DNA from: Protonemura montana
Lineage: Eukaryota; Arthropoda; Insecta; Plecoptera; Nemouridae
DNA length: 64,000 bases
Assembly (NCBI GenBank): GCA_947568835.1
Contig: OX387603.1
Location: 28,234,651-28,298,650, forward strand
Direction of reading: 5' to 3'
A program made the position numbers and the translations under genes. Positions 8,333 through 64,000 of the stretch are shown here, one piece after another. Positions within the stretch are counted from its first letter, which is position 1. Each line of letters begins with the position of its first letter. The notes beneath the pieces were generated by a model. It made no database searches, was not told the DNA's origin, and was given only the letters and a program-made list of their open reading frames with translations.

Positions 8333-8410
8333 TTAACCTTATATAAAAGCTTTAAAATTGTGATGTTCAACTTTTTAGTTTGTGGGTAGGTAGGTGGCTG
8401 GGATGTGACC
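8333..8410 (+). promoter_or_regulatory. Helitron 5' terminus with TATA-like box and TGG/TGGC microsatellite
   Basis: The terminal TTAACC is followed at once by TATATAAAAG (8340-8349), a good TATA-box match, then at +55 by a GGTAGGTGGCTGG run. The equivalents start at 22150, 33662, 43657, 46548 and 58948. There the run varies from unit to unit in its mix of GGGT, GGCT and GGAT tetramers. The terminus function is supported by six shared junctions; promoter activity is only inferred. Confidence 0.55.
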
Positions 8411-9253
8411 GGCCGCTCTACTGTTTATAGAAATTGCGAAATTCGACTCAAAACGTACGAAAATGGGCTAGAATTTTTCAGAATTAACTTTTACATTGGC
8501 GTGCGACATTTTCACAGCGATTAAAAATCGTTTTCATGGTGAAAAGTTGCTAAATATGACGGCAAGATATCTCAGAGCCAGGCGATGCAGCTCGATTTTA
8601 TAACTATTTTAATACTCAAGTTTTTCTAGCCTCGAGCTTTGCGGTGATTTTTCATGCATTCGTAATAAAGTTGTTGATGTAATTGAGCGAAAACACATTC
8701 AATTGCGATCGTTTTACGTGAAAAAGAATTAATTTTGCTAATACACTGACAGCTTTAATCAATTGTTTGCTATTTTGACACCACAGCAAGGTGTACGAAA
8801 TCGTGAATGTATCTTCTCAGCAGTGGATTATCAGGCCAAATTAAATGTCAAAATGGGTTGAAATGTCAAACTATCTACTAAAACCCCTTTGTTTTTGGCG
8901 AAAATCGGTCAAAAACGACAGGAAATGGTTATAATTTGTACATGATTTCGAAGCATGATATGAAACGCGACATTTTTAAGGTGAGTTGATGTCATACGGC
9001 GATTTGACAGGATTCCAAATGCCACTTCATATGAAACAGGTAGGTAAGGAAAAAGTTTGACTCTTTACAGGCGTAAAAATTGTATTTTTATTGCACATTT
9101 TGTGTTCAATTGAATTTCTTTAGTTTAATTGTGTTTCATAAAGGTATAAACATCTTGCCGATTTAAGCCGAAATTGTTCAAATACGACGCATACTATTCA
9201 ACCCCAGCCTAGACAAGATTCCACCACCAATTTCAAACGGAAATGATATTTCC

Positions 9254-9320
9254 GACTTTTATGCAAATCACCTGTGGGTTAACTTTCCATTGCTAGCAAC
9301 CTAAGCATGGAATATGGATT
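9254..9320 (+). repeat. 67-bp direct repeat, left of the GCATA satellite
   Basis: Runs from GACTTTTATGCAAATCACCTG to AATATGGATT. A diverged copy (GACTTTAATGCAAATC to TACGGATT) lies at 12112-12179 just after the satellite. The same pair brackets the satellite in U2 (23074-23140 and 23891-23957) and U4 (47483-47549 and 48925-48991). Confidence 0.75.
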
Positions 9321-9650
9321 TCTTAACAACCAAACTATACTAAACATGTTTTTTAGAGATTATTCCGACAAATCTTGATTTTGAGTGACAGATCGCAAAA
9401 ACAGGTGACAATTCTTTTGCATCGACGTAAGAAGCCGTGAAAAAAATTATAATTTTCAAGACTGCCGTGAATTAGCAACAGGTTTTCAAACGCAAAGTGT
9501 TTAGTGAGAACATTTTTATTTAAAAATTTTTTTTTACCGCGCAAATACGTAATTGGTACCTATATCAAGGTACCTATTAATTGTTTTGAATGCGAAAAAC
9601 AATGCATTCACAATTTCTTTGGCAATTTTAAAGGCTGTCCTGAACATTTG

Positions 9651-12108
9651 GCATAGCATAGCACAGCAAAGCATAGCATAGCATAGCAAAGCATAGCATA
9701 GCATAGCAAAGCATAGCACAGCATAGCATAGCAAAGCATAGCATAGCATAGCATAGCATAGCATAGCAAAGCATAGCATAGCATAGCATAGCAAAGCATA
9801 GCAAAGCATAGCATAGCATAGCATAGCAAAGCATAGCATAGCATTGCAAAGCATAGCATAGCATAGCATAGCATAGCATTGCATAGCATAGCATATCATA
9901 GCAAAGCATAGCATAGCATAGCAAAGCATAGCATAGCAAAGCATAGAATAGCAAAGCATAGCATAGCTTATCAAAGCATAGCATAGCAAAGCATAGCATA
10001 GCATAGCATAGCAAAGCAAAGCAAAGCATAGCATAGCTTATCAAAGCATAGCATAGCAGAGCATATCATAGCATAGCATAGCATAGCATAGCATAGCATA
10101 GAAAAGCAAAGCATAGCATAACATAACATAGCATAGCATAGCAAAGCATAGCAAAGCATAGCATAGCAAAGCATAGCAAAGCATAGCATAGCAAAGCATA
10201 GCAAAGCATAGCAAAGCATAGCATAGCAAAGCATAGCAAAGCATAGCATAGCAAAGCATAGCAAAGCATAGCAAAGCATAGCATAGAATAGCAAAGCATA
10301 GCTTATCAAAGCATAGCAAAGCATAGCAAAGCATAGCATAGCATAGCATAGCATAGCATAGCATAGCATAGCATAGCATAGCATAGCATAGCATAGCATA
10401 GCAAAGCATAGAATAGCAAAGCATAGCATAGCTTATCAAAGCATAGCATAGCAAAGCATAGCATAGCATAGCATAGCAAAGCAAAGCAAAGCATAGCATA
10501 GCTTATCAAAGCATAGCATAGCAGAGCATAGCATAGCATATCATAGCAAAGCATAGAATAGCAAAGCATAGCAAAGCGTAGAATAGCAAAGCATAGCATA
10601 GCTTATCAAAGCATAGCATAGCAAAGCATAGCATAGCATAGCATAGCAAAGCAAAGCATAGCATAGCATAGCATAGCAAAGCATAGAATAGCAAAGCATA
10701 GCATAGCTTATCAAAGCATAGCATAGCAAAGCATAGCATAGCATAGCATAGCAAAGCAAAGCAAAGCATAGCAAACTTATCAAAGCATAGCATAGCAGAG
10801 CAAAGCATAGCATAGCATAGCATAGCATAGCATAGCATAGAAAAGCATAGCATAGCAAAGCTTATCAAAGCATAGCATAGCATAGCAAAGCATATCATAG
10901 CAAAGCATAGCAAAGCATAGCAAAGCATAGCATAGCAAAGCATAGCAAAGCATAGCATAACATAGCATAGCATAGCATAGCAAAGCAAAGCATAGCATAG
11001 CAAAGCATAGCAAAGCATAGCAAAGCATAGCATAGCATAGCATAGCATAGCAGAGCATAGCAAAGCATAGCATAGCATTGCAAAGCATAGCATAGCATAG
11101 CATAGCATAGCATAGCATAGCATATCATAGCAAAGCATAGCATAGAATAGCATAGCATAGCATAGTTTATCAAAGCATAGCATGGCAAAGCATAGCATAG
11201 CATAGCTTATCAAAGCATAGCATAGCAAAGCAAAGCAAAGCATAGCATAGCAAAGCATAGCAAAGCATAGCAAAGCATAGCATAGCATAGCATAGCATAG
11301 CAAGGCATAGCAAAGCATAGCATAGCATTGCAAAGCATAGCATAGCATAGCATAGCATAGCAAAGCAAAGCATATCATAGCAAAGCATAGCATAGAATAG
11401 CATAGCATAGCATAGCTTATCAAAGCATAGCATAGCAAAGCATAGCATAGCATAGCTTATCAAAGCATAGCATAGCATAGCTTATCAAAGCATAGCATAG
11501 CAGAGCATAGCATAGCATAGCATAGCATAGCATAGCATAGCATAGAAAAGCATAGCATAGCTTATCAAAGCATAGCATAGCATAGCAAAGCATATCATAG
11601 CAAAGCATAGCAAAGCATAGCATAGCATAGCAAAGCATAGCAAAGCATAGCATAGCATAGCATAGCATAGCTTATCAAAGCATAGCATAGCATAGCAAAG
11701 CATATCATAGCAAAGCAAAGCATAGCAAAGCATAGCATAGCATAGCATAGCATAGCTTATCAAAGCATAGCATAGCATAGCAAAGCATATCATAGCAAAG
11801 CATAGCATAGCAAAGCATAGCAAAGCATAGCAAAGCATAGCATAGCATAGCATAGCATAGCAAAGCATAGCATAGCATAGCAAAGCATAGCAAAGCAAAG
11901 CAAAGCATAGCATAGCAAAGCATAGCATAACATAGCATAGCATAGCATAGCATAGCATAGAATAACAAAGCATAGCATAGCATAGCAAAGCAAAGCATAG
12001 CATAGCATAGCAAAGCATAGCAAAGCAAAGCAAAGCATAGCATAGCAAAGCATAGCATAACATAACATAGCATAGCATAGCATAGCATAGAATAACAAAG
12101 CATAGCAA
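9651..12108 (+). repeat. GCATA pentamer satellite of U1, ~2.46 kb
   Basis: About 490 pentamers, mainly GCATA with GCAAA variants. Interspersed 'GCTTATCAAA' and 'GAATA' variants recur and suggest a higher-order repeat. A 15-base period without stops leaves every minus-strand frame open as LCYAM-type peptides, which are not proteins. Confidence 0.97.
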
Positions 12109-12208
12109 TCTGACTTTAATGCAAATCACCTGTGGGTTTAATTTCTATTGCTAGCAACCTCAGCATGGAATACGGATTTTACAGGTTTTATATCTAGAGC
12201 TCTATTCA

Positions 12209-13520
12209 TGTTATTTGAGATCAGCTGGCTGGATCCTATGCTCTATCCAGGTTATTTGAGATCAGCTGGCTGGATCCTATGCTCTATCCAGGTTATTTGG
12301 GATCAGCTGGCTGGATCCTATGCTCTATCCAGGTTATTTGAGATCAGCTGGCTGGATCCTATGCTCTATCCAGGTTATTTGAGATCAGCTGGCTGGATCC
12401 TATGCTCTATCCAGGTTATTTGAGATCAGCTGGGTGGATCCTATGCTCTATCCAGGTTATTTGAGATCAGCTGGCTGGATCCTATGCTCTATCCAGGTTA
12501 TTTGAGATCAGCTGGCTGGATCCTATGCTCTATCCAGGTTATTTGAGATCAGCTGGCTGGATCCTATGCTCTATCCAGGTTATTTGAGATCAGCTGGCTG
12601 GATCCTATGCTCTATCCAGGTTATTTGAGATCAGCTGGCTGGATCCTATGCTCTATCCAGGTTATTTGAGATCAGCTGGGTGGATCCTATGCTCTATCCA
12701 GGTTATTTGAGATCAGCTGGCTGGATCCTATGGTCTATCCAGGTTATTTGAGATTAGCTGGCTGGATCCTATGCTCTATCCAGGTTATTTGAGATCAGCT
12801 GGCTGGATCCTATGCTCTATCCAGGTTATTTGAGATCAGCTGACTAGATCCTATGCTCTATCCAGATTATTTAAGATCAGCTGGCTGGATCCTATGCTCT
12901 ATCCAGGTTATTTGAGATCAGCTGGCTGGATCCTATGCTCTATCCAGGTTATTTGAGATCAGCTAGCTGGATCCTATGCTCTATCCAGGTTATTTGAGAT
13001 AAGCTGGCTGGATCCTATGCTCTATCCAGGTTATTTGAGATCAGCTGGGTGGATCCTATGCTCTATCCAGGTTATTTGAGATCAGCTGACTGGATCCTAT
13101 ACTCTATCCAGGTTATTTGAGATCAGCTGGCTGGATCCTATGCTCTATCCAGGTTATTTGAGATCAGCTAGCTGGATCCTATGCTCTATCCAGGTTATTT
13201 GAGATCAGCTGGCTGGATCCTATGCTCTATCCAGGTTATTTGAGATCAGCTGACTGGATTCTATGCTCTTTTCAGGTTATTTGAGATCAGCTGGGTGGAT
13301 CCTATGTTCTATTCAGGTTATCTGAGATCAGCTGGCTGGATCCTATGCTCTATCCATGTTATTTGAGATCAGCTGGCTGGATCCTATGCTCTATCCAGGT
13401 TATTTGAGATCAGCTGGCTGGATCCTATGCTCTATCCAGGTTATTTGAGATCAGCTGGCTGGATCCTATGCTCTATCCATGTTATTTGAGATCAGCTGGC
13501 TGGATCCTATGCTCTATCCA
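12209..13520 (+). repeat. 41-bp tandem repeat of U1, 32 copies
   Basis: The unit starts GGTTATTTGAGATCAGCTGG and ends CTCTATCCA. 1312 bp divided by 41 is exactly 32, so there is no net indel. Copies differ by scattered single substitutions. Most units carry GGATCC and CAGCTG palindromes. The copies are directly contiguous. Confidence 0.96.
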
Positions 13521-14029
13521 GATTTTTTTAAATCAGCAGTTTGTATCTTTACATCTATTGGGCAATGGGCTTTAATAATGCCTTCTGAATGTACATTAAA
13601 AGACATATTTTAAAAAGAAATATATCCCAGGTCTGAGGACCTAGGTAATGGACTAGGGCCATATTTGAGTAATGATCTGGCCATCGGGCATGCCCGCAGA
13701 GCATAGGGTAGCTACTGGTGAAGAGGCAAAATGCTTATTTAAATCGAAAGGGCCAAAAACTATATTTTCTTATTTATTTTCTTAGTTCTTTGGGTGGTGG
13801 TCCCATAAAAGGCTTTAAAAAGGCACAGGTGCATATTTTGTGTTCAATTGTGTTTCTTTAATGAGTTTTCAGATAAATTTAGTAGTGATTTAACGCGTAA
13901 TTAATTAGTTAACCTCTAAAGACATATTATTATGATCACTGACCACAATAATTTGACTTCTGGCTTCATTCATTTACAGCGTGTAGCATCGACAGCTTCT
14001 TATGGCACGTAATTTAAATCGTCGCGCGT

Positions 14030-14730
14030 GGTGTTCAAGTTTGAATTTGCGTGACGTCATTTTACGTAGCGGGTTGTTGGTTACCGCTTTTTGATCGGCA
14101 TCCACGCTCGGCAATTAGTCACACTCCCAAAGCTCGCCAACCGCCATTTGCTATAGCAGTTAGTATAGCATGAGAGTGCGGATTACCTACACGGCGAAAC
14201 ACTCTTGTGGGGAAGAATTTCGTCGCTATTCAAGGTAATCTTATTTCAGATTTAATTTGCATGTCACAATATCCAGTAATAGTCAACCACTGATATCATC
14301 AAGTGATTCAATTATTTATAGTGATTTTATAGCGTTTAGCTACTTAATTATTAAAATTATCGTTCATCATCAAGACTGGAAAGCATACATTTTGCCCGTC
14401 TTGTGGATATTTCCATGACGTCATTTTTACGTAACATGATGCAATCGCTCGACGCGATTCTCATCCCCCTCCCCAACCCTCCCATGCCCACCGTTCCAAC
14501 AATTAGAAGTGTGTTCAACATGGCGTCCAAGCTCGCATTCGAAGCAAATTAGCATATTTCTTTGTAAAGAAACTGAAGTGATTGTTGTGCATATTAAAGC
14601 ATACATTTAGCCTGGCATGATATTTGCGTGAGGTCACTTTTATTGAACATGGCGGTCGGTTCGTGCTCAGCCATTCCCGCGTCAGCTCGGCTACGCTAGG
14701 CATTACTAAAGCCTCGCTTTCTTTACACAG
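14030..14730 (+). promoter_or_regulatory. 5' regulatory region of U1 Rep/helicase: two CREs and 5'UTR intron
   Basis: Two perfect TGACGTCA palindromes (14052-14059 and 14416-14423), each followed within 3-5 bases by TACGTA. A candidate YY1-like CCGCCATTT lies at ~14149. A consensus donor CAAG|GTAAT at 14234/14235 and a pyrimidine-rich acceptor ending CAG at 14728-14730 would define a 496-nt intron ending immediately before the ATG. The splice sites and CREs are conserved in all five complete 5' regions; use in vivo is inferred. Confidence 0.6.
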
Positions 14731-17700
14731 ATGCCACCTAAGAAGCGTGTAAATCTGACGTCTCGGAAGGGCGGGAAAGGTGCAACGGCAAGAGCGGTGA
14801 GCGCGGCGGCGAGGAAAAGGGCTGCTGCTGACGAGAGAGCGAGGACGAGAGAGACGGCCGAGCACGCCGACCATCAGGCGACTGCAAGCCCGTCGACGTC
14901 GACGCTCGACGAGCAGCGTCCTTTTCTTTCCGCTGTTCTTAGAGAAGCCCCGGTGAGTGTCTTTAAGCATGATTCATTATTAGAACAGGCCGCCCCCGCT
15001 TCTCTTCCAGCTTTTTATGATCAACCCTCTACAAGCCGCTATATGCATTCCTTTTCCGACAATTTGCCGTCTATACTCCCATCCCTTGACCAGACTCACA
15101 TCCTAGAAAATTCAGTTGGCCAGCTCCAAGAGGACAAGAACGTGCAAGTAGCAGCAAACGAACGGAGTGCCCGACTAGCGGAAAAAGCTAGAAATGCTCG
15201 CCAGCGCAGAAAGGCTGAGGATGAGGCCCAGCGTCTTCTGCGTCTGGCTCAGGTTGCCGAGTCGAAGCGTCGACGACTAGACGAAGCTTCTGAGGGACGA
15301 CGCCTACAGCTTCTTGCTGAAAAGGCCGAGTCTGAGCGCCTCCGCTTGGCAAAATGTACGGAAGAACAGCGCCTTCAGCGACTAGCCCTTAAGGCAGAGT
15401 CAAAGCGTCGCCGCTTGAGTGACGAAGCTGACGAACAGCGCCTTCAGCGACTAGCCCTTATGGCAGAGTCAAAGCGTCGCCGCTTGAGTAACGAAGCTGA
15501 CGAACAGCGCCTTCAGCGACTAGCCCTTATGGCAGAGTTCAAGCGTCGCCGCTTGAGCGACGAAGCTGAGGAACAGCGCCTTCAGCGATTAAGCCAGAAG
15601 GCAGTTCAAACGCAGTGTGAAAGGCAGCATGAGACTACAGAGGCGCGCGAGAGCCGATTAGTCGCCGCGCGGGAGCGATCTCAGCAGTGTCGAAATATAG
15701 AGACCAGGGATAAGCTCGCGGCGTTCGAAGTGGAAGTCTCTCAGCGCGCTGAGGAGGAGGCGTCTCAACGCGCCCAAGAGGCTGAACTAGAGCAAAGCCA
15801 GCGAGTCGCGGTCGAGGCTATTGACGTGGCAGACGATCAGTTCGAACCTGATCTTGCTCCAGTGAACCTTCATCCTTTCCACTTGGAGGCTGCACGGCAA
15901 GACGTCGCTGACGTCGCCCTTTTTCACTGCGGCAGAATGGACGAAGTATGCAGGGTGTGCGGCGCTCTGTACTTCGCAGGAGAGCGTCCTTCTGACAAAA
16001 TTTACAAACTCTGTTGTCACTCGGGCAACGTAATCCTCGAGCCTCTCCTCGCGTATCCCGATTTAATGCATGCGTTGCTGACTGGAGACCATTGCGAGTC
16101 TAAGAACTTCCGCAAAAACATCCGGTCGTACAACAGTTCGCTCTCCTTCGCTTCAGTCGGAGTTAAGACGGACATCCCCCAGGGCCGTGGCACATACTGT
16201 TTTCGTGTCCATGGCAACATCCAGCACAGGATCGGCCATATGGGGCAGGCGGTGCAGAAGCCACTCTATTCGCACCTGTACTTTCTTGACGCGGAACAAG
16301 CGAAGACGCATCGAATGGACAGGCGCCAGAATGCTAATCTGCTACCCAACCTGCTTCATGAGCTGGACGCGCTGGTTCGCGAAATAAATCCTTTTGCCCA
16401 AGGGCTTAAAACGTTAGGTCAGGTGGAGGCCGACGACAGGATCCGTGCAGCTGCCGAGGGGCGACCCGAGGTCATGGCCGAACTGCGTTTCGTGGATGAC
16501 CGACGGCGGCTGTACGAAAATCCTACGGCCCACGAGGTGGCCGTTGTCTATCAGAGCGTTGACGGTGGCATGCCTCCTCTAGGACGTGATATTCGTATCC
16601 ATACTCGTGGCGGATTTATTGAGCAGCTGTCTGTCCTGTCGCCCAACACGGATCCGCTCAGCTACGTGCTGTTGTTCCCGCGTGGAGAACCCGGCTGGCA
16701 ACGAGGTATGCCGCACACCAGGCAATCTAAGCACAGCGTCGTCACTCTAATGGAGTTTTATAGCCATCGACTCCACGAGCGTGTCGGCGCCTTCCATCCA
16801 GTGCTGCACGCCGGCAAGCTGACGCAGCAGTTTATGGTAGACGCCTATATCAAGGTTGAGGGCAATCGCCTTGAGTTCGTCATCAGGAACCAGAAAACGC
16901 TGCGCGCCGAACTCTACAGTGGGCTCATGGACCACTTGGCGAACCGTGCTGAGCGGCAGGGCTGCAATGTCGGGAAGATGGTGATTCTGCCTTCCAGTTT
17001 CATCGGAAGCCCCAGGCATTGCCAGCAGCTATATCAAGACGCTATGAGTATCGTCACCAAGTTTGGAAAACCCGATCTTTTCCTTACTATGACGTGTAAT
17101 CCGAAGTGGCCTGAGATTCAGACGAGCCTAGCGGCGTACGAAAGGGCAGAAGACCGACCCGATCTCACCGCGCGAGTATTCCAACTTAAACTCAAGGAGC
17201 TCATGTCTGATCTCACCAAGAGGCACGTGCTGGGCGTTCCCATGGCTCACTTCCACGTGATCGAGTTCCAAAAACGTGGACTCCCTCACGCTCACATCCT
17301 GGTAATCCTTCGCGACGAGGACAAGATCCGCACTCCCGAGGAGGTAGACGCACTTATCTGTGCCGAGTTGCCCGATCCGGTGACCGAGGAGAGACTGCAC
17401 AAGGTCATCGTGTCGTCGATGATCCACGGCCCGTGCGGCGCTCGGAACATGTCCTCTGTGTGCATGGAGGACGGAAAGTGTAAGAAGAAGTTCCCCAAGT
17501 CGTTCACAGATGTGACTGTGGTCAACGAGGGGGGTTTCACCGTCTATCGCCGTCGAGAGAGCGGGCAGACGCATACCATCTCAGGAAGAGTGGTCGACAA
17601 CCGAGACGTAGTGCCTTACAACAAGTACTTAAGCTCCAAGTTTGACTGCCACCTGAACATCGAGCACTGTGGATCCGCGAAGACGGTCAAGTACCTGTGC

Positions 17701-20205: not shown

Positions 20206-20508
20206 ATCCTATCATTGTACTATCCCTTACATTTGCAATAGCGGTAACATTTCCTAGATAAATTTAAATTCAGTAAGGCTAGGTAGGGCAGACCAGGAAC
20301 CGTGACTAGCACGGCAGGTAGCAACCCAATTCCCATATATTTCACCATGCTGACACGCTTTTCTGCTGCAGGTATAAAGCACCGGACGCCGCATAGCCCT
20401 TTAACTTCACGACCATTGCGCTCGCATGTGGACACTCTAACGGAACTGCTCCTCCCAGAGCTAGACAATTATGCATGTACATTAATTGATAGATTATATT
20501 GTACATAC

Positions 20509-20978
20509 ATTTAGTAAAGTAGTTACTTCTAACTAATAGTATTAGAAATGCAGCCTGCTGTTTTCCATCTGCATGTCATGCATGTTCAAAAAAACAAAAA
20601 AACAAAAAAAAAATCATAGATTTAGTAAAGTAGTTACTAAGTAGTAAGTAGTAGTAGTTGGTAAGTAAGTAGTTAATAGTTATGCAACCTGCTGTTTTCC
20701 ATCTGCATGACATGCATGTTCAAAAAAACAAAAAAACAAAAAAAAAATCATAGATTTAGTAAAGTAGTTACTACGTAGTAAGTAGTAGTAGTTGGTTAGT
20801 AAGTAGTTAATAGTTATGCAACCTGCTGTTTTCTATCTGCATGACATGCATGTTCAAAAAAACAAAAAAACAAAAAAAATATCATAGATTTAGTAAAGTA
20901 GTTACTAAGTAGTAAGTAGTAGTAGTAGTTGGTTAGTAAGTAGTTAATAGTTATGCAACCTGCTGTTTTCTATCTGCA
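20509..20978 (+). repeat. ~134-bp 3' tandem repeats of U1, four copies
   Basis: Units begin ATTTAGTAAAGTAG at 20509, 20620, 20754 and 20888. Each holds a TAGTAAGTAG run, the motif CCTGCTGTTTTC(C/T)ATCTGCATG and an A-rich CAAAAAAACAAAA tail. The first unit is shorter. They lie ~300 bp after the stop codon, so are probably transcribed 3'UTR or readthrough. Confidence 0.9.
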
Positions 20979-21263
20979 TGTTTGCAATTTTTTAACGTCA
21001 CAATCTTACTTTCGTGTCGGTCTTTTTACTGCATGTTTCTCTTTTCTTGATTCTATCTTGGAATGTCAAACCAACTAACCACCAAGCATGATAGCATTGC
21101 ATCAGTCTAAAAACTGAACAATGCATCCTACCTATCCGACACAGTTGATCCTTGCATGAATCCTTGCATGTCCGCACATCAGAGATTCCTGTTGCTTGCA
21201 ACGGGCTGCACAATCTTTGATAGTGTAAGGCAGAGGCGATGTAGTGTGCGACGATCGCCATGC

Positions 21264-21290
21264 TGCCGGGGCGGGATGGGGGCCCCGGCA
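21264..21290 (+). other. GC-rich 9-bp hairpin in U1 3' region
   Basis: TGCCGGGGC and GCCCCGGCA are perfect inverted repeats with a 9-base purine loop. Identical hairpins occur at 32776-32802, 42768-42794 and 58062-58088. It is ~860 bp from the 3' end, too far to be the Helitron terminal hairpin. It might act on the transcript. Confidence 0.7.
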
Positions 21291-22120
21291 TAACAATTAT
21301 TTTTAAAATTCTCTCACTTAACAGCTTGAATACATTTAGAAACTTTTTATTTCTCCAAGAATGGTGCCTCTCTCTTGCCGTCTTTTTTATTTTGTTTTAG
21401 ACCCCCCCTCCCCCTGCCAATCGTAGAGAAGGAACTTCTTCATGGCACCATTGCGGAGATTACTTTCAATTACGAATGAACAGTGGCGGTACTGCGACAT
21501 GGCTGGTCTGCATTGACTGTTGCTTTCAAATGGTCAAAGTTTTCAACGCAAATCGTCGTAAACATGTGAATATTTCTTATATTTGTAAGAATGATCATAA
21601 TATTGGCAAATAAAAATTACAATAATTAATAGGTACATTTTTTTTTGTTTAATCTTCAAAAAAAAAACCTTCGTTACTGAAACCAAACCAAAAATATTTG
21701 TAATGATTCCTTTCTGTCCAAAAAGCACACCAAATGGTTGTGTCCTTATAAGCAATGCTGCTGGTTAGCCATCATCGTTGAAGGTACTGGCGGAAATCAG
21801 GTATAGTATGGTACATCAAGTCGTAATGGCATAATACTTTGTTTTCTTGACATTTTCTCAGTACTTTATTTTGTTGTCCCATAAAAGTTTCTTAAATGTA
21901 TGCGTAGAGGCTACATTAAGTGTAAAGTCTCAGTTCGGTCCCAGGGCTTAGGGACTAGATTTTGGCCTAGGCCCATATATTTTTGTCATGATCTATCCTA
22001 TCGGCATATGCCCTATGGGCATAGGGTACTAGAAAAACAGTAGTGAGCTATTTGTAATTGTTAATCCAAGTTCAAAGACAATACTAATACTAAAATAAAA
22101 CCACTAGGGATAAGAACAAC

Positions 22121-53800: not shown

Positions 53801-56668
53801 GAGGAGGTAGACGCACTTATCTGTGCCGAGTTGCCCGATCCGGTGACCGAGGAGAGACTGCACAAGGTCATCGTGTCGTCGATGATCCACGGCCCGTGCG
53901 GCGCTCGGAACATGTCCTCTGTGTGCATGGAGGACGGAAAGTGTAAGAAGAAGTTCCCCAAGTCGTTCACAGATGTGACTGTGGTCAACGAGGGGGGTTT
54001 CACCGTCTATCGCCGTCGAGAGAGCGGGCAGACGCATACCATCTCAGGAAGAGTGGTCGACAACCGAGACGTAGTGCCTTACAACAAGTACTTAAGCTCC
54101 ACGTTTGACTGCCACCTGAACATCGAGCACTGTGGATCCGCGAAGACGGTCAAGTACCTGTGCAAGTACGTGTACAAAGGTCACGACTGTGCCAGGGTCC
54201 AGCTCCGCGTCTCTGTCCCCGCGGAGGGCGATCATGAGCCACGTCCAGCGCACGGTGCCCAGCAAGAGTTGGTGTGGGACGAGGTCTCACAGTTCATCGA
54301 CTCTCGCTACGTGAGTCCCCAAGAGGCTGCGTGGAGAATTTTCGGATTTGAAATGCACGAAAAGTCGCACACTATCATCCGTTTGGCGATCCACCTCGAG
54401 GGTGACCACATGGTCACGTTCCGTCCTGGAGACGAGGAAGCCGCAGCAGAACGCGGCAGGGCTGCGCTGACTACGCTGACGGCATGGTTTGCGCTGAATA
54501 GTAGCAACCCGGCGGCACGGCAGTACAAGTACATCGACATCCCGTACCACTTCCGTTTCGAGGGCAAAGCGTGGAAGCCACGTAAGCGAGGTGCCGGCTC
54601 CATCATCAGCCGAATGTACTCCGTGACGCCCCGGCAGATCGAGCGATACCATCTTCGTCTCCTTTTGCTACACGTCGCCGGCGCCACCTCATTCGAGGAC
54701 GTGCGCACGTTCCAGGGTAGGGTTTACGCTACCTTCAAGGAAGCTGCCGTGGCACGCAACCTGCTTATGGACGACGACGAGTGGCAGAAATGTCTGCAGG
54801 AGGCGGTTGCTATAAAGATGCCAAACGAACTTCGTCAGCTGTTTGCTATCATTTGCGCGTTCTGTCAGCCTCTTGACCCGCTGTCTCTGTGGGAGCGTTT
54901 CAAGGGCGATTTCTGCGAAGATTTCGCCCGAGAACACGACCCCATCGAGGCAGAACAGTTGGCCCTGAATTCCATCCAGTCCGTCCTTGCCCTACACCGC
55001 CTGACCAACGCCGAAATCGGTTTGCCGGCGCCTCGAGTGCCAGTCATCGTTGCTGTCGACGAGCAGTTCGACCAGACCGCCGAAAGGGAAGAGGCCGAGG
55101 AGAACGTGGTGAAGCTCAACGGCAGGCAGCGCGTGGCATTCGACGCGGTGATGGCAGCAATCGACGACCCGAACGCCGAGCAGAGGTGCTTCTACCTGGA
55201 CGGCCCGGGCGGCAGCGGGAAGACCTTCCTATACAACACCCTCATCAGCACGCTGCGAGCCCGAGGCGAGCGAGCCGTGGCCGTCGCGTGGACGGGCATT
55301 GCGGCGACGTTACTGAAGGGAGGGAGGACCTGCCACTCGCGATTTCGATTGCCTGTTCCGATTGTGGAAAACAGCACGTCTGGCGTGAAGCCCAACTCCG
55401 CCGAGGGCGCTTCGCTGAGGGCGGCCAAGGTCATCATCTTGGATGAAGGACCCATGGCGCCTCTGCTGGCCCTGAACGTGATCGAGCGGACGCTAAGAGA
55501 CGTGACCAACGATGAGCGTCCGTTCGGCGGAAAGGTGATCGTTATCGGCGGGGATTTTAGGCAGTGCCTCCCAGTCGTTCGAAATGGCAACCGAACGACC
55601 ATTGTCGAGCAATGCATTAAGCGTGGCGCGCTTTGGTCGTTGTTCCGCACCCTCGAGCTGCGCGCGAACATGCGCGCCAACCCAGGCGAAGTAGAGTTCG
55701 TCGAGTGGCTCTTGCGTGTCGGAAACGGCGAGATTTTGAATGACTGCCACCTCCCGGATGACACCATCGCATTACCTGTCCAATGCGTCGTGGACTGCGT
55801 CATTGACGCCGTCTTCGGCACGAGCATTAGTGCTGCCGAGATGGCCGTGATGCAAGACCATGCCATCCTCTGCCCGAAGAACGTGGAGTCTTTGAACATC
55901 AATGACAACGTTCTTGAGCGCCTCGAAGGTGACGTGTTCGAATACTGCAGCGCCGACACTGTCGATGTCAGTGAAGGCGAAGATGGCGACGTTTTGGCTA
56001 CCGATTATCCCGTAGAATATCTAAATTCATTAACGCCATCCGGGATGCCACCGCACAAGCTTCGTCTGAAAGTTCATGCAATCGTGATGCTCATGAGGAA
56101 AGTCGACGTGAGAGCCGGCCTATGCAATGGGACTCGACTCAGCGTTGTTGCACTCCACGAGCACGTGATCGACTGCAGGATCATCGGAGGGCGCTGTGCG
56201 GGACGACGCACTTTCCTATGTAGAGTCAACCTAACTCCCTCGGACATTGGCATGCCCTTTACGATGACAAGGCGCCAGTTTCCGATCCGTCTGGCATTCG
56301 CCATGACCATCAATAAAGCCCAGGGTCAATCTTTAAAGAGGGTGGGAATTAATTTAGAAAAACCAGTATTCGGACACGGTCAGCTATACGTGGCGCTTTC
56401 TCGGGCTCGCTCTTTGGACTCGATCTTCGTGGCAGTCGCCGGTAACGAGGCGCAGGGCAAGTTGATCGTCTCGAGCAACACCACCTTCACCAAGAACATC
56501 GTGTACCAGGAGGTGCTCGAGATTCATGCGCCGGACCACCAGGCAGCGGATCCTTCCTCGCGTAGTGGCTATCAAGAGGCTGACCAGCAGGCCCTTGAGC
56601 AGTCGCTTAGTCAACTCGCTGTATCGGATGCGGATGAAGAAGTTCCAATGGACGCCTCCTCCTCCTAA
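50849..56668 (+). CDS. Helitron Rep/PIF1-like helicase, copy 4 (1939 aa)
   Basis: The longest copy: eight 23-residue repeats (51482-52033), 115 residues more than copy 1. HUH H968/H970, Y1103/Y1107 and Walker A Lys 1458 are present, and the frame is intact. Relative to copy 2 it has two more repeats, an EAERHRLSDEAD/EAERHRLSHEAD pair in the middle, as if a two-unit segment was duplicated. Private substitutions are GKLVILPSS, ELMTDL, SSTFDCHLN, AAVARNLL, EENVVKL and MRKVDVRAG. The 3' half carries VGINLEKP as in copy 3, although the 5' half groups with copy 2, so this gene looks mosaic. Confidence 0.97.
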   Translation: MPPKKRVNLTSRKGGKGATARAESAAAKKRAAADERARTRETAEHADHQATASQSTSTLDEQRPFLSAILEEAPVSVLKHDSLLEQAAPASLPAFYDQPSTSRYMHSFPDNVPSVLPSLDQTQILENSVGQLQEDKNVQVAANERSARLAEKARNARQRRKAEDEAQRLLRLAQVAESKRRRLDEASEGRRLQLLAEKAESERLRLTKCTEEQRLQRLALKAEAERRRLSDEADQQRLQRLALKAELKRCRLSDETDEQRLQRLALKAESKRRRLSNEADEQRLQRLALKAEAERHRLSDEADEQRLQRLALKAEAERHRLSHEADEQRLQRLALKAEAERHRLSDEADEQRLQRLALKAESERRRLSDEADEQRRQRLALKAEAERHRLSAESDDQRLQRLSQKAVQTQSERQHETPEARESRLVAARERSQQRRNAETRDKLAAFEVEVSQRAEEEASQRAQEAELEQSQRVAVEAIDVADDQFEPDLAPVNLHPFHLEAARQDVADVALFHCGSMDEVCRVCGALYFAGERPSDKIYKLCCHSGNVILEPLLAYPDLMHALLTGDHCESKNFRKNIRSYNSSLSFASVGVKTDIPQGRGTYCFRVHGNIQHRIGHMGQAVQKPLYSHLYFLDAEQAKMHRMDRRQNANLLPNLLHELDALVREINPFAQGLKTLGQVEADDRIRAAAEGRPEVMAELRFVDDRRRLYENPTAHEVAVVYQSVDGGMPPLGRDIRIHTRGGFIEQLSVLSPNTDPLSYVLLFPRGEPGWQRGMPHTRQSKHSVVTLMEFYSHRLHERVGAFHPVLHAGKLTQQFMVDAYIKVEGNRLEFVIRNQKTLRAELYSGLMDHLANRAERQGCNVGKLVILPSSFIGSPRHCQQLYQDAMSIVTKFGKPDLFLTMTCNPKWPEIQTSLAAYERAEDRPDLTARVFQLKLKELMTDLTKRHVLGVPMAHFHVIEFQKRGLPHAHILVILRDEDKIRTPEEVDALICAELPDPVTEERLHKVIVSSMIHGPCGARNMSSVCMEDGKCKKKFPKSFTDVTVVNEGGFTVYRRRESGQTHTISGRVVDNRDVVPYNKYLSSTFDCHLNIEHCGSAKTVKYLCKYVYKGHDCARVQLRVSVPAEGDHEPRPAHGAQQELVWDEVSQFIDSRYVSPQEAAWRIFGFEMHEKSHTIIRLAIHLEGDHMVTFRPGDEEAAAERGRAALTTLTAWFALNSSNPAARQYKYIDIPYHFRFEGKAWKPRKRGAGSIISRMYSVTPRQIERYHLRLLLLHVAGATSFEDVRTFQGRVYATFKEAAVARNLLMDDDEWQKCLQEAVAIKMPNELRQLFAIICAFCQPLDPLSLWERFKGDFCEDFAREHDPIEAEQLALNSIQSVLALHRLTNAEIGLPAPRVPVIVAVDEQFDQTAEREEAEENVVKLNGRQRVAFDAVMAAIDDPNAEQRCFYLDGPGGSGKTFLYNTLISTLRARGERAVAVAWTGIAATLLKGGRTCHSRFRLPVPIVENSTSGVKPNSAEGASLRAAKVIILDEGPMAPLLALNVIERTLRDVTNDERPFGGKVIVIGGDFRQCLPVVRNGNRTTIVEQCIKRGALWSLFRTLELRANMRANPGEVEFVEWLLRVGNGEILNDCHLPDDTIALPVQCVVDCVIDAVFGTSISAAEMAVMQDHAILCPKNVESLNINDNVLERLEGDVFEYCSADTVDVSEGEDGDVLATDYPVEYLNSLTPSGMPPHKLRLKVHAIVMLMRKVDVRAGLCNGTRLSVVALHEHVIDCRIIGGRCAGRRTFLCRVNLTPSDIGMPFTMTRRQFPIRLAFAMTINKAQGQSLKRVGINLEKPVFGHGQLYVALSRARSLDSIFVAVAGNEAQGKLIVSSNTTFTKNIVYQEVLEIHAPDHQAADPSSRSGYQEADQQALEQSLSQLAVSDADEEVPMDASSS

Positions 56669-57037
56669 ATCCTATCATTGTACTATCCCTTACATTTGCA
56701 ATAGCGGTAACATTTCCTAGATAAATTTAAATTCAGTAAGGCTAGGTAGGGCAGACCAGGAACCGTGACTAGCACGGCAGGTAGCAACCCAATTCCCATA
56801 TATTTCACCATGCTGACACGCTTTTCTGCTGCAGGTATAAAGCACCGGACGCCGCATAGCCCTTTAACTTCACGACCATTGCGCTCGCATGTGGACACTC
56901 TAACGGAACTGCTCCTCCCAGAGCTAGACAATAATGCATGTAAATTAATTGATTGCCCTATCGTAGATTTGGTAAAGGTACTTCAAATTTGAATGCTGTT
57001 TAAAAAAAAAAAAAATAAAATAAAATATTGTACATAC

Positions 57038-57780
57038 ATTTAGTAAAGTAGTTACTTCTAACTAATAGTTTTAGAAATGCAGCCTGCTGTTTTCTATCTG
57101 CATGTCATGCATGTTCAAAAAAAAAAATAAAAATAAAAAAACATATCGTAGATTTAGTAAAGTAGTGATTCAGTAGTTAGTAGTAGTAGTTGGTAAGCAA
57201 GTAGTTAATAGTTATGCAACCTGCTGTTTTCCATCTGCATGTCATGCATGTTCAAAAAAACAAAAAAACAAAAAAAAAATCATAGATTTAGTAAAGTAGT
57301 TACTAAGTAGTAAGTAGTAGAAGTTGGTAAGCAAGTAGTTTATAGTTATGCAACCTGCTGTTTTCCATCTGCATGTCATGGATGTTCAAAAAAACAAAAA
57401 AACAAAAAAAAAATCATAGATTTAGTAAAGTAGTTACTAAGTAGTAAGTAGTAGAAGTTGGTAAGTAAGTAGTTAATAGTTATGCGACCTGCTTTTTTCC
57501 ATCTGCATGTCATGCATGTTCAAAAAAACAAAAAAACAAAAAAAAATCATAGATTTAGTAAAGTAGTTACTAAGTAGTAAGTAGTAGAAGTTGGTAAGTA
57601 AGTAGTTAATAGTTATGCAACCTGCTGTTTTCCATCTGCATGTCATGCATGTTCAAAAAAACAAAAAAACAAAAAAAAATACCATAGATTTAGTAAAGTA
57701 GTAACTAAGTAGTAATAAGTAGTAGTTGGTTAGTAAGTAGTTAATAGTTATGCAACCTGCTGTTTTCTATCTGCATGTTT
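57038..57780 (+). repeat. ~134-bp 3' tandem repeats of U4, six copies
   Basis: Unit starts at 57038, 57151, 57285, 57416, 57551 and 57688. An extra A-rich insertion (about 56952-57030, not in other units) precedes the first. Several units share the variant GTAGAAGTTGG, pointing to recent duplication inside this array. Confidence 0.9.
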
Positions 57781-58061
57781 GCAATTTTTTTAAGGTCACA
57801 ATCTTACTTTCGTGTCGGTCTTTTTACTGCATGTTTCTCTTTTCTTGATTCTATCTTGGAATGTCAAACCAACTAACCACCAAGCATGATAGCATTGCTT
57901 CAGTCTTAAAACTGAACAATGCATCCTACCTATCCGACACAGTTGATCCTTGCATGAATCCTTGCATGTCCGCACATCAGAGATTCCTGTTGCTTGCAAC
58001 GGGCTGCACAATCTTTGATAGTGTAAGGCAGAGGCGATGTAGTGTGCGACGATCGCCATGC

Positions 58062-58088
58062 TGCCGGGGCGGGATGGGGGCCCCGGCA
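58062..58088 (+). other. GC-rich 9-bp hairpin in U4 3' region
   Basis: Same stem and loop as in U1. Confidence 0.65.
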
Positions 58089-58918
58089 TAACAATTATTT
58101 TTAAAATTCTCTCACTTAACAGCTTGAATACAATTAGAAACTTTTCATTTCTCCAAGAATGGTGCCTCTCTCTTGCCGTCTATTTTTATTTTGTTTTAGA
58201 CCCCCCCTCCCCCTGCCAATCGTGGAGAAGGAACTTCTTCATGGCACCATTGCGGAGATTACTTTCAATTACGAATGAACAGTGGCGATACTGCGACATG
58301 GCTGGTCTGCATTGACTGTTGCTTTCAAATGGTCAAAGTTTTCAACGCAAATCGTCGTAAACATGTGAATATTTCTTATATTTGTAAAAATGATCATAAT
58401 ATTGGCAAATAAAAATTACAATAATTAATAGGTACATTTTTTGTGTGTTTAATCTTCAAAAAAAACCTTCGTCACTGAAACCAAACCAAAAATATTTGTA
58501 ATGATTCCTTTCTGTCCAAAAAGCACACCAAATGGTTGTGTCCTTATAAGCAATGCTGCTGGTTAGCCATCATCGTTGAAAGTACTGGCGGAAATCAGGC
58601 ATAGTATGGTATATCAAGTCGTAAGGGCACAATACTTTGTTTTCTTGCCATTTTTTCAGTACTTTATTTTGTTGTCCCATAAAAGTTTCTTAAATGTATG
58701 CGTAGAGGCTACATTAAGTGTTAAGTCTCAGTTCGGTCCCAGGGCTTAGGGACTAGATTTTGGCTTAGGCCCATATATTTTTGTCACGACTTATCCTATC
58801 GGCACATGCCCTATGGGCATAGGGTACTAGAAAAATAGTAGTGAGCTATTTGTCATTGTTAATCAAAGTTCAAAGACAATACTAATACTAAAATAAAACC
58901 ACTAGGGATAAGAACAAC

Positions 58919-58947
58919 AGGTGCCGTTAGGCATCGGGTACTGCTAG
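58919..58947 (+). other. Helitron 3' terminus of U4
   Basis: Hairpin and CTAG (58944-58947); U5 begins at 58948. Confidence 0.88.
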
Positions 58948-60211
58948 TTAACCTTATATAAAAGCCTTAATTTGGCGATGTTCAACTTTTTAGTTTGTGG
59001 GTAGGTAGGTGGGTCTCTGGGATGTAACCGGCCGCTCTACTGGTTATGGAAATTGTGAAATTAGACTCAAAACGTATGGAAATGGGCTAGAATTTTTCAG
59101 AATTAACTTTTACATTGGCAGGCGACATTTTCACAGCGATTTAAAATCGTTTTCATGGTGAAAAGTTGCTAAATATGACGGCAAGATATCTCAGAGCCAG
59201 GCGATGCAGCTCGATTTGATAATTCTTTTAATACTCAAGTTTTTCTAGCCTGGAGCTCCACGGCGCATTTTCATACATTCGTATTAAAGTTGTTGATGTA
59301 ATTGAGCGAAAACATATTCAATTGCGATCGTTTCACGTGAAAAAGAATTAATTTTGCTAATAAACTGACAGCTTTGTTCAAATGTTTGCTATTTTGTCAC
59401 CTCGGCAAGGTGTACGAAATCGTGAATGTATCTTCTCAGCAGTGGATTATCAGGCCAAATTAAACGTCAAATTCAAACGTCAAAGTCAACGTCAATGTCA
59501 AATTATTTTCGAAATCTCCAGAACTGAAGGAAAAACGTGTGAAATTGGCTTACATTGGTTCATAATTCAGGTTTACATCCCGCTACGTCTTTTTCACGGT
59601 AATTTCAAAGTGCATTATTATAGTAAAGTATCAAAAATATTGTTGGTGTCAATTGGCTAGCAAGATGAAAAAGAGCCACTTGACAAGCCCGCAACATTCT
59701 CGTGGAGGTTATTTACACGTCAAAAACGTTTGGAAAGTTAAAAAATCTATTAACACCACTGTTGGAATCTATTGTAAATATATTTAAAGATATTTTTTGT
59801 AAATAGTATACGAAAGACGAGAAATTTCGTGAAAATACGACGATTTTTCTTCATCCCCAGTCTAGACAAGATCACACAGTTGATTCCAAGCCATCAATGA
59901 TATTTGTGACAATTATGTAAATCAATAGCAATCCTATAAACTTTCTTTGCAGGTCTTTAAGACATTAAATAGGGTTTTTAAACAAACAAAACACACTTGA
60001 ATTGTTTTTTATTGAAAATTTTACCAAAACTAGATTTAAAGTGACATTGACAGATCAAAGATAAAAATTGACAGATATCTTTCATTGACTCAGGACGCCG
60101 TGGATATTTATTTTATTTTCGAGAATGCCGTGATCATTCAACAGGTATTTAATTCAAAACGTCATTAATTACAGAGTGCAGCTTTAAAAAATCTGATCCA
60201 AATACGCAATC

Positions 60212-60520
60212 TATGGTTTAATATGGTTTTCTATGGAATTGTATGGTATTGTATAGTACTCTTTGGTGTTATATGGTAGTCTATGGTATTACGTGATATT
60301 ATATGGTATTGTTTGGTTATTTACGGTATTCTATGGAATTGTACAGTATTTTATGGTATTGCATGGTAAAGTATGGTATTTTACGGTATTCTATGATATT
60401 CTATGGTATTGTATGGTATTGTTTGGTATAATATGGAATTGTATGGTATTTTATGGTATAATATGGTATTGCATGGTATTGCAAGCTAAAGTATGGTATT
60501 CTATGGTATTCAATGGTTTT
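60212..60520 (+). repeat. TATGG/TATTx pentamer satellite of U5, ~0.31 kb
   Basis: Begins after AATACGCAATC with nearly the same first ten pentamers as U3, so U3 and U5 share an origin here. It is followed by the conserved AGGCGTAAAAATTGTAT block. Confidence 0.9.
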
Positions 60521-60769
60521 TTACAGGCGTAAAAATTGTATGTTTATAGAACATTTTGTGTTCAATTGTGTTTCTTTCATGAGTTTTCAGATAAATTTAG
60601 TAGTGATTTAACCCGTAATTAATAAGCTAACCTCTAAAGACACATTATTACGATCACTGTCCGCAATAATTTTACTTCTGACTTCATTCATTTACAGCGT
60701 GTAGCATCGACAGCTTCTTATGGCACGTAATTTAAATCGTCGCGCGTGGTGTAAAAGTTTGAATTTGCG

Positions 60770-61450
60770 TGACGTCATTTTACGTAGCGGGATGATGGTT
60801 TAGCGCTTTTTGATCGGCATCTACGCTCGGCAATTAGTCACACTCCCAAAGCCCGCCAGCCGCCATTTGCTATAGCAGTTAGTCTAGCATGAGAGTGCGG
60901 ATTACCTACACGGCGAAACACTCTTGTGGGGAAGAATTTCGTCGCTATTCAAGGTAATCTTATTTCAGATTTAATTTGCATGTCACAATATCCTCTAATA
61001 GTCAACCCCTAATATCATCAAGTGATTCAATTATTTATAGTGATTTTATAGCGTTTAGCTTCTAAATTATTCTTAAAATTATCGTTCATCATCAAGACTG
61101 GAAAGCATACATTTTGCCCGTCTTGTGGATATTTCCATGACGTCATTTTTACGTAACATGATGCAATCGCTCGACGCGATTCTCATCCCCCTCCCCAACC
61201 CTCCCATGCCCTACGTTCCAACAATTAGAAGTGTGTTCAACATGGCGTCCAAGCTCGCATTCGAAGCAAATTAGCATATTTCTTTGTAAAGAAACTGAAG
61301 TGATTGTTGTGCATATTAAAGCATACATTTAGCCTGGCATGATATTTGCATGAGGTCATTTTTACAAAACATGGCGGTTGGTTCGCGCTCAGCCACGCTC
61401 CGCTTCAGCTCGGCGACGCTAGGCACTAAAGCATCGTTTTCTTTACACAG
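60770..61450 (+). promoter_or_regulatory. 5' regulatory region of U5
   Basis: CREs at 60770-60777 and 61138-61145; donor GT at 60954; acceptor CAG ending 61450 (497-nt putative intron). Several bases (CTTATTTCAGATTT after the donor, TGATTTTATAGCG) match U1 rather than its neighbours. Confidence 0.6.
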
Positions 61451-64000
61451 ATGCCACCTAAGAAGCGTGTAAATCTGACGTCTCGGAAAGGCGGAAAAGG
61501 TGCAACGGCAAGAGCAGAGAGCGCGGCGGCGAAGAAAAGGGCTGCTGCTGACGAGAGGGCGAGGACGAGAGAGACGGCCGAGCACGCCGACCATCAGGCA
61601 ACTGCTAGCCCGTCGACGTCGACGCTCGACGAGCAGCGTCCTTTTCTTTCCGCTATTCTCGAAGAAGCCCCGGTGAGTGTCTTAAAGCATGATTCATTAT
61701 TAGAACAGGCCGCCCCCGCTTCTCTTCCAGCTTTTTATGATCAACCCTCTACAAGCCGCTATATGCATTCATTTCCCGACAATGTGCCATCTGTACTACC
61801 ATCCCTTGACCAAACTCAGATCCTGGAAAATTCAGTTGGCCAGCTCCATGAGGACAAGAAAGTGCAAGTAGCAGCAAACGAACGGAGTGCCCGACTAGCG
61901 GAAAAAGCTAGAAATGCTCGCCAGCGCAGAAAGGCTGAGGATGAGGCCCAGCGTCTTCTGCGTCTGGCCCAGGTTGCCGAGTCGAAGCGTCGACGACTAG
62001 ACGAAGCTTCTGAGGGACGACGCCTACAGCTTCTTGCTGAAAAGGCTGAGTCTGAGCGCCTCCGCTTGACAAAATGTACCGAAGAACAGCGCCTTCAGCG
62101 ACTAGCCCTTCAGGCAGAGTCAAAGCGTCGCCGCTTGAGTGACGAAGCTGACAAACAGCGCCTCCAGCGACTAGCCCTTAAGGCAGAGTCAAAGCGTCGC
62201 CACTTGAGTCACGAAGCTGACGAACAGCGCCTTCAGCGACTAGCCCTTATGGCAGAGTCCAAGCGTTGCCGCTTGAGTGATGAATCTGACGAACAGCGCC
62301 TTCAGCGACTAGCCCTTATGGCAGAGTCAAAGCGTCACCGCTTGAGCGACGAAGCTGAGGAACAGCGCCTTCAGCGATTAAGCCAGAAGGCAGTTCAAAC
62401 GCAGTGTGAAAGGCAGCATGAGACTACAGAGGCGCGCGAGAGCCGATTAGTCGCCGCGCGGGAGCGATCTCAGCAGCGTCGAAATGCCGAGACCAGGGAT
62501 AAGCTCGCGGCGTTCGAAGTGGAAGTCTCTCAGCGCGCTGAGGAGGAGGCGTCTCAACGCGCCCAAGAGGCTGAACTAGAGCAAAGCCAGCGAGTCGCGG
62601 TCGAGGCTATTGACGTGGCAGACGATCAGTTCGAACCTGATCTTGCTCCAGTGAACCTTCATCCTTTCCACTTGGAGGCTGCACGGCAAGACGTCGCTGA
62701 CGTCGCCCTCTTTCACTGCGGCAGCATGGACGAAGTATGCAGGGTGTGCGGCGCTCTGTACTTCGCAGGAGAGCGTCCATCTGACAAAATTTACAAACTC
62801 TGTTGTCACTCGGGCAACGTAATCCTCGAGCCTCTCCTCGCGTATCCCGATTTAATGCATGCGTTGCTGACCGGAGATCATTGCGAGTCTAAGAACTTCC
62901 GCAAAAACATCCGGTCGTACAACAGTTCGCTCTCCTTCGCTTCAGTCGGAGTTAAGACGGACATCCCCCAGGGCCGTGGCACATACTGTTTTCGTGTCCA
63001 TGGCAACATCCAGCACAGGATCGGCCATATGGGGCAGGCGGTGCAGAAGCCCCTCTATTCGCACCTGTACTTTCTTGACGCGGAACAAGCGAAGACGCAT
63101 CGAATGGACAGGCGCCAGAATGCTAATCTGCTACCCAACCTGCTTCATGAGCTGGACGCGCTGGTTCGCGAAATAAATCCTTTTGCCCAAGGGCTTAAAA
63201 CGTTAGGTCAGGTGGAGGCCGACGACAGGATCCGTGCAGCTGCCGAGGGGCGACCCGAGGTCATGGCCGAACTGCGTTTCGTGGATGACCGACGGCGGCT
63301 GTACGAAAATCCTACGGCCCACGAGGTGGCCGTTGTCTATCAGAGCGTTGACGGTGGCATGCCTCCTCTAGGACGTGATATTCGTATCCATACTCGTGGC
63401 GGATTTATTGAGCAGCTGTCTGTCCTGTCGCCCAACACGGATCCGCTCAGCTACGTGCTGTTGTTCCCGCGTGGAGAACCCGGCTGGCAACGAGGTATGC
63501 CGCACACCAGGCAATCTAAGCACAGCGTCGTCACTCTAATGGAGTTTTATAGCCATCGACTCCACGAGCGTGTCGGCGCCTTCCATCCAGTGCTGCACGC
63601 CGGCAAGCTGACGCAGCAGTTTATGGTAGACGCCTATATCAAGGTTGAGGGCAATCGCCTTGAGTTCGTCATCAGGAACCAGAAAACGCTGCGCGCCGAA
63701 CTCTACAGTGGGCTCATGGACCACTTGGCGAACCGTGCTGAGCGGCAGGGCTGCAATGTCGGGAAGATGGTGATTCTGCCTTCCAGTTTCATCGGAAGCC
63801 CCAGGCATTGCCAGCAGCTATATCAAGACGCTATGAGTATCGTCACCAAGTTTGGAAAACCCGATCTTTTCCTTACTATGACGTGTAATCCGAAGTGGCC
63901 TGAGATTCAGACGAGCCTAGCGGCGTACGAAAGGGCAGAAGACCGACCCGATCTCACCGCGCGAGTATTCCAACTTAAACTCAAGGAGCTCATGTCTGAT
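61451..64000 (+). CDS. Helitron Rep/PIF1-like helicase, copy 5 (partial, 850 codons)
   Basis: Same start as the other copies and open to the last base. Aligning its end with copy 1 (offset 2549 against 2480) gives a difference of exactly 69 bp, one 23-residue repeat, so it has four repeats (62084-62359) and no net frameshift. It includes the basic N-terminus, the helical repeats, the Cys cluster and part of the Helitron_like_N region. It ends at ELMSD, about 26 codons before the HUH motif, so catalytic competence cannot be judged. The CERQHETTEARES segment is shared with copy 1, while SAILEEAPVS is shared with copies 2 and 4. Confidence 0.92.
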   Translation, partial: MPPKKRVNLTSRKGGKGATARAESAAAKKRAAADERARTRETAEHADHQATASPSTSTLDEQRPFLSAILEEAPVSVLKHDSLLEQAAPASLPAFYDQPSTSRYMHSFPDNVPSVLPSLDQTQILENSVGQLHEDKKVQVAANERSARLAEKARNARQRRKAEDEAQRLLRLAQVAESKRRRLDEASEGRRLQLLAEKAESERLRLTKCTEEQRLQRLALQAESKRRRLSDEADKQRLQRLALKAESKRRHLSHEADEQRLQRLALMAESKRCRLSDESDEQRLQRLALMAESKRHRLSDEAEEQRLQRLSQKAVQTQCERQHETTEARESRLVAARERSQQRRNAETRDKLAAFEVEVSQRAEEEASQRAQEAELEQSQRVAVEAIDVADDQFEPDLAPVNLHPFHLEAARQDVADVALFHCGSMDEVCRVCGALYFAGERPSDKIYKLCCHSGNVILEPLLAYPDLMHALLTGDHCESKNFRKNIRSYNSSLSFASVGVKTDIPQGRGTYCFRVHGNIQHRIGHMGQAVQKPLYSHLYFLDAEQAKTHRMDRRQNANLLPNLLHELDALVREINPFAQGLKTLGQVEADDRIRAAAEGRPEVMAELRFVDDRRRLYENPTAHEVAVVYQSVDGGMPPLGRDIRIHTRGGFIEQLSVLSPNTDPLSYVLLFPRGEPGWQRGMPHTRQSKHSVVTLMEFYSHRLHERVGAFHPVLHAGKLTQQFMVDAYIKVEGNRLEFVIRNQKTLRAELYSGLMDHLANRAERQGCNVGKMVILPSSFIGSPRHCQQLYQDAMSIVTKFGKPDLFLTMTCNPKWPEIQTSLAAYERAEDRPDLTARVFQLKLKELMSD

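Follow-up and report, generated by a model that had tools for sequence, protein, structure and literature searches.

How an array of Helitrons that adjoin head to tail without intervening host DNA can come about is the question raised by a locus of the stonefly Protonemura montana, which lies in a stretch of 64,000 nucleotides on contig C2 (positions 28234651-28298650, referred to here as the window) of a genome assembly of 258 Mb in 34 contigs. We consider it likely that such arrays are built by serial and exact insertion at the left terminal sequence (LTS) of a resident element, the site at which its 5' end is nicked, followed by unequal exchange between units and occasional movement of several units as a block. 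With somewhat less confidence, we also favor the view that the arrays are stacks in which foreign elements gather at the 5' side and exchange their ends by recombination.

The 25-base junction sequence CTGCTAG|TTAACCTTATATAAAAGC occurs five times in the window, exactly and always on the plus strand (22143..22167, 33655..33679, 43650..43674, 46541..46565 and 58941..58965), as reported in a preliminary description of this DNA, while 100 dinucleotide shuffles of the window yielded no junction even with three mismatches allowed. The 18-base 5' end is present six times, first at 8333 after host ...ACATATAA, with A at 8332. Beyond the window the array continues through the rest of unit 6 (to 68943), a sixth junction and unit 7 to 72214 in window coordinates, where the right flank begins with T (TATAATAC). 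The right-hand end, which the preliminary description had left to be sought, is thereby located, and the whole array comprises seven units from 8333 to 72214, bordered by A at the left and T at the right, with zero bases of host DNA between units and both ends present in all seven. Both the head-to-tail arrangement without host DNA and the A|T host contact of the first unit, as described earlier, are borne out. Units 1 (8333..22149, 13817 bp), 2 (22150..33661, 11512 bp), 3 (33662..43656, 9995 bp), 5 (46548..58947, 12400 bp) and 6 (58948..64000 and on to 68943, 9996 bp), all on the plus strand, are coding elements. The earlier characterization of the array as full-length coding Helitrons applies to these five but not to unit 4 (43657..46547, plus strand, 2891 bp, G+C 0.315), a non-coding element of which about 2 kb is a 10-bp satellite and in which a search found no open reading frame (ORF) of at least 200 aa, nor to unit 7 (3271 bp, ending at 72214), which at 3.3 kb is too short to hold a RepHel gene.

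The same junction is found on a genome-wide scale. Among 969 exact copies of the 18-base 5' end (310 without and 659 with a preceding G), 637 are part of an exact CTGCTAG junction, a number that is inflated by segmentally duplicated arrays (for example on C14) and does not count diverged ends. If AT sites were chosen at random, about 0.01 junctions would be expected, assuming an AT frequency of 0.085, a value between the two frequencies, 0.080 and 0.091, that the window and its host part show. With 637 of 969 ends in junctions, head-to-tail arrays are therefore habitual in the family. Of the AT dinucleotides after bases 9 and 11 of the left end, the latter was examined and proved to be used twice, and no exact head-to-head junction was found in a search of the genome, so that the junction site is both exact and strand-specific. 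At C1:282869-282897 and C4:685870-685898, a 5' end follows bases 1 to 11 of a second 5' end, which looks as though the inner A|T had been used. On C14, at 941495-975857 and 11831815-11855478, groups of units recur at distances of about 31.3 kb and 18.4 kb; their match scores are identical, and they are probably segmental duplications. Such repeats are difficult to assemble, but an assembly artefact is extremely unlikely as the source of 637 junctions that involve several contigs in the rows listed and join units of different kinds, and T follows every one of the 37 closed chains that were read.

These 37 belong to a set of 41 chains chosen by position (all on C1, those in the first 17.3 Mb of C2, and the window array); they comprise 15 single copies (two of them nested as a pair) and 22 arrays with between 2 and 9 units each, or 90 units in total, a unit being defined as having both ends, so that truncated ones would be missed outside the window array. 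T follows directly in 37 of 37 closed chains, and the insertion lies between A and T in 36, the remaining one being a nested copy between T and T. Similarly, among the 100 listed of the 310 5' ends without a preceding G, 98 follow A and two follow T. One form of the 3' end has 629 exact copies in the genome, and only one of at least 629 exact 3' ends lacks the following T. At C2:4978 kb, a diverged paralogue (about 85% identity) of a host site on C4 that is described below has no element and reads CA|TCCCC across the insertion point. The family thus inserts between A and T and makes no target-site duplication. The 350-bp left flank of the window array has only partial copies elsewhere, and among the 40 matches listed only its own locus reaches the insertion point. 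The solo copies read have no ends other than TTAACC and CTAG, which agrees with the ends assigned in the preliminary description, although they were found through these ends and copies ending otherwise would escape. At C2:3102500-3108000 (L037), an element is inserted between T and T, in opposite orientation and about 22 bp inside the 5' end of another element; the two T-flanked 5' ends listed include its own.

Each of the five coding units in the window array carries a RepHel ORF on the plus strand, of 1824 aa in unit 1 (14731..20205), 1893 aa in unit 2 (25772..31453), 1916 aa in unit 3 (36094..41844), 1939 aa in unit 5 (50849..56668) and 1847 aa in unit 6 (61451..64000, ending at window coordinate 66994), that of unit 1 being composed of STPR repeats, an HUH nuclease and a PIF1-type helicase. 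Helitron_like_N and PIF1 domains were detected in both ORFs scanned (units 1 and 5), and comparison of the same two with Helraiser (PDB 7lcc) gave 1275 and 1284.5 bits over about 1490 residues. The sequences PHAHI, YLCKY and GPGGSGKT, which we take to be the HUH motif, the two tyrosines and Walker A, are present in all five ORFs, and YLCKY is aligned to Helraiser. Pairwise synonymous divergence (dS) of the RepHel genes in these units ranges from 0.010 to 0.026 with ratios of nonsynonymous to synonymous divergence (dN/dS) between 0.06 and 0.29, ratios which show that the units diverged as functioning lineages under selection and not as decaying duplicates. The right terminal sequence of unit 1 (22123..22149, plus strand) consists of the hairpin GTGCC-GTTA-GGCAT, 9 nt and CTAG, in keeping with the CTRR-plus-hairpin pattern, and the 3' ends of units 2 to 5 match it except for one T/A difference. 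One 3' end folded alone gave a z of -2.66 with 5 of 200 shuffles as good, compared with -1.25 and 26 of 200 when it was folded together with the next 5' end. In the window units and the copies read, the 5' end is TTAACC and not the Helitron-typical TC, and the copies elsewhere were searched by this type of end, so that other 5' ends would go undetected. Because the 5' end starts with TT rather than TC, we call the element a variant Helitron and not a canonical member. Helentron and Helitron2 elements insert between T and T; membership in these groups is not supported, given the A|T sites of 36 of the 37 closed chains and the Helraiser match. The family is best described as a Helraiser-type Helitron plus its non-autonomous relatives. 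At their N-terminus, the RepHel proteins contain 23-residue STPR repeats (Pfam PF21107 in the two ORFs scanned) encoded by a 69-bp minisatellite, whose copy number as determined by Tandem Repeats Finder differs in each of the five coding units, from 3.3 to 8.3; going by FMBP-1, these repeats presumably bind DNA.

One way to obtain abutting units would be rolling-circle concatemers, in which a single element is copied in several turns of a circle, or is read past its terminator, and the product is inserted in one step; the same CTAG-LTS junction is indeed present on Helitron circles. For the most part, however, the units of an array do not derive from one element in the arrays read. Unit lengths differ by more than 10% within 17 of the 22 closed arrays, and window units 1, 2, 3, 5 and 6 differ from each other with dS values up to 0.026. 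For the 66 array units that have a full-length relative in the sample, the best relative was located in the same chain in 6 cases, in the neighbouring chain of the duplicated A01 locus in 5 and at another locus in 55. The 6 own-chain cases, which count in favor of concatemers, do not significantly exceed the shuffle mean of 3.3 (P 0.15); they consist of two adjacent units in L017 (99.7%) and four units in L039, where a two-unit period is repeated (99.4 and 99.8%), and derivation from one element holds locally in these parts. When a 930-bp unit was searched genome-wide, copies of 100% identity (rounded) were found at seven loci, one being the solo query and six lying in arrays with five kinds of neighbour, two of the six loci having the same neighbour. 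Likewise, a solo copy at 13.43 Mb on the same contig, C2, shares 99.6% identity with unit 7 of the window array. Judged by these relationships, the arrays read are mostly not concatemers of one element, and neighbours are mostly different elements whose closest sampled relatives lie elsewhere. We consider one-step insertion of concatemers very unlikely. Of the two routes put forward in the preliminary description, repeated passes round one circle fit poorly with the 55 of 66 best relatives elsewhere and with the additions on the 5' side at a locus on C4, while missed termination of a pair that already exists is compatible with one dimer that occurs at two sites, both described below.

The C4 locus offers two states of one site, whether through a true duplication or because two haplotypes stand next to each other in the assembly. 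Array X (C4:388415-394266) and array Y (C4:555898-560498) are inserted at one duplicated host site, with no differences in 320 bp of left flank and one in 450 bp of right flank, and contain six and five units, respectively. Unit X4 equals Y1 without a difference over 923 bp, X5 corresponds to both Y2 and Y4 with no mismatches and one 1-bp gap, and X6 corresponds to Y5 with one mismatch. Y3 is a hybrid in which the first 8 of 25 informative columns follow X6 and the next 17 follow X4, and a single unequal crossover in an X4-X5-X6 array would yield Y. The suggestion that unequal exchange changes the copy number is thus borne out at one locus. In addition, X contains three units (1089, 914 and 1088 bp) that start directly after the same host A and end directly before X4; the third of these is 99.9% identical to a unit on C1. 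Their loss from Y by recombination would require a crossover in the shared first 18 bp because Y1 is unmixed from base 19, and we infer that the difference between X and Y represents a gain.

This arrangement bears on two further explanations. HUH transposases bind a 5' end through a tyrosine and join a 3' end to it. If, during excision, 3' ends were joined in trans to the 5' ends of other elements, mixed circles could form and be inserted in one step, and mixed arrays with exact junctions would result. We regard this as unlikely, since at C4 three units are situated beside an otherwise shared array and at a second locus, C1:282-297 kb, the 5' units differ between near-identical copies, while trans end-joining by itself leaves unexplained why additions respect the boundary of the resident. 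Homologous recombination between an extrachromosomal circle and a resident element, on the other hand, would agree with the occurrence of recombination between units as seen in the single-crossover hybrid Y3 (8 markers, then 17) and with the much greater divergence of 5' parts compared to coding parts in some window units (units 1 and 3 are 80.9% identical in the first 1.2 kb and 98.4% in the gene-bearing block). It would be expected to leave hybrids at the point of entry, but over 923 bp no difference separates the resident beside the three extra units from its counterpart, so that the crossover would have to be confined to the shared first 18 bp. Moreover, different size classes adjoin in 31 of 54 pairs. 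Entry by circle recombination is therefore quite unlikely.

At C1:282-297 kb, two 375-bp spacers differ by one base and the units after them share an end suffix, of which the last unit differs in 0 or 1 columns among three copies and the penultimate unit by 6 differences between copies 1 and 2 and by 17 between copies 2 and 3 (16 of these fall within the first 100 columns). Two units lie between spacer and suffix, and in this place one copy has other elements than the other copy, a pattern that fits a change on the 5' side as at C4. In the third copy the right flank is a different one, and the history of the locus is more complex. A different kind of event is suggested by a pair of units that is present at both C2:18.65 Mb and C4:16.48 Mb (939/939 and 928/930 identical positions) with unrelated left flanks (63 identities in 144 aligned bases). 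On C2 the pair is followed by a third unit; on C4 the final G of the second unit is missing and host DNA comes next. This dimer speaks for concatemers in part and suggests that a pair of units can move jointly through the inner terminator, independent assembly at the two sites being the alternative.

Serial insertion at resident 5' ends would combine these observations as follows. To begin transposition, the transposase would cut the plus strand right before the first T of the element. A resident LTS, preceded by either A or CTAG, would then be a ready-made nick site because the transposase cuts there normally. Joining of the CTAG end of an incoming element to the first T of the resident would produce CTAG|TTAACC, in the same orientation and without host DNA, and Rep cleavage of the resident LTS may thus be the cause of the junctions. 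The right-most unit would be the founder and the array would grow at its 5' side, homologous recombination between units would later alter the copy number, and a pair of units would occasionally move as a block. According to published work, Helraiser cuts the plus strand between flank and LTS and also at the joined junction of right terminal sequence and LTS, and its circles, which carry the CTAG|LTS junction, are active (PMC4778049, PMC5876387). Integration of DNA at copies of the enzyme's own nick site has been described for TrwC, an HUH relaxase (PMC3264647); TrwC of R388 belongs to bacterial conjugation and serves as an analogy of mechanism, not as a tested relative.

Several observations weigh against this interpretation. 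The empty-site paralogue on C2 carries an indel of 15 bp on the left of the site, at a distance of about 2 bp, and in a second diverged paralogue on C16 the left flank alone matches. Neighbours belong to the same size class in 23 of 54 pairs compared to an expected fraction of 0.29, and within the two short classes adjacent pairs are more alike (95.0%, n=18) than unlinked ones (91.3%, n=769), because of which local duplication or co-movement is considered to contribute. The extra units of X could in principle reflect a precise loss from Y instead of a gain. Dating by private substitutions in 80 pairs found the right unit to be older in 36, younger in 32 and tied in 12, and since there was no trend along the arrays these ages are not used as support.

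Other features of the window include internal satellites (5-bp GCATA, 41-bp and 10-bp repeats) at 9651-12107, 12199-13537, 23474-24578, 44435-46464 and 47883-49653, the length of which varies strongly from unit to unit. The units also have ORFs of 214-341 aa on the minus strand, which overlap either satellites or the RepHel gene. The left host flank contains ORFs for a LINE-like reverse transcriptase and endonuclease on the minus strand (732-4561).

Tandem Helitrons as such are already known, and repeated circle passes as their source in this genome are largely not supported. Helraiser and Helibat1, the bat Helitron1 type, resemble the present family in their RepHel protein, the 3' end with hairpin and CTAG, the insertion between A and T and the CTAG|LTS circle junction, while the family described here differs by its 5' TT instead of TC, the varying number of 23-aa STPR repeats and the 637 of 969 ends in junctions. 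Head-to-tail Helitrons are known from bat, Drosophila, rice and maize and were used as an argument for rolling-circle transposition (PMC5876387, PMC5148889). Xiong et al. 2016 described arrays of truncated centromeric Helitrons in plants (via PMC12628747, PMC5148889), many with several 5' ends and one 3' end, whereas the arrays read here mix elements, some of them coding. For tandems of FoHeli in Fusarium, 5' insertion and rolling circle were named as alternatives and left undecided, and a three-copy Helitron tandem was noted in Metarhizium (PMC5148889); these are single cases of non-canonical Helitrons, in contrast to the hundreds of junctions and the duplicated locus with a 5'-side difference reported here. 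Apart from this Fusarium discussion, no case of genome-wide exact self-targeting by Helitrons was found in the openly licensed literature that was searched. Repeated insertion into one site was identified by McGurk and Barbash as the main source of transposable element dimers (via PMC12628747). The process proposed here likewise involves repeated insertion at the same site, but double insertion in those dimers, as presented in that review, uses target-site duplications, which Helitrons do not make, and the element's own first T would complete the site instead. Excerpts of papers on wheat, Cotesia and poplar Helitrons contain nothing that concerns such junctions, although the poplar work suggests that Helitrons generate tandem gene copies.

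Because this family offers hundreds of junctions and one duplicated locus whose arrays exist in different states, the choice between 5' insertion and rolling circle becomes testable in one genome. If serial insertion at resident 5' ends is correct, exact head-to-tail junctions alone would be no evidence for rolling-circle concatemers. For the family and its host, stacking on existing copies could limit damage to host genes and could bring different elements together for recombination.

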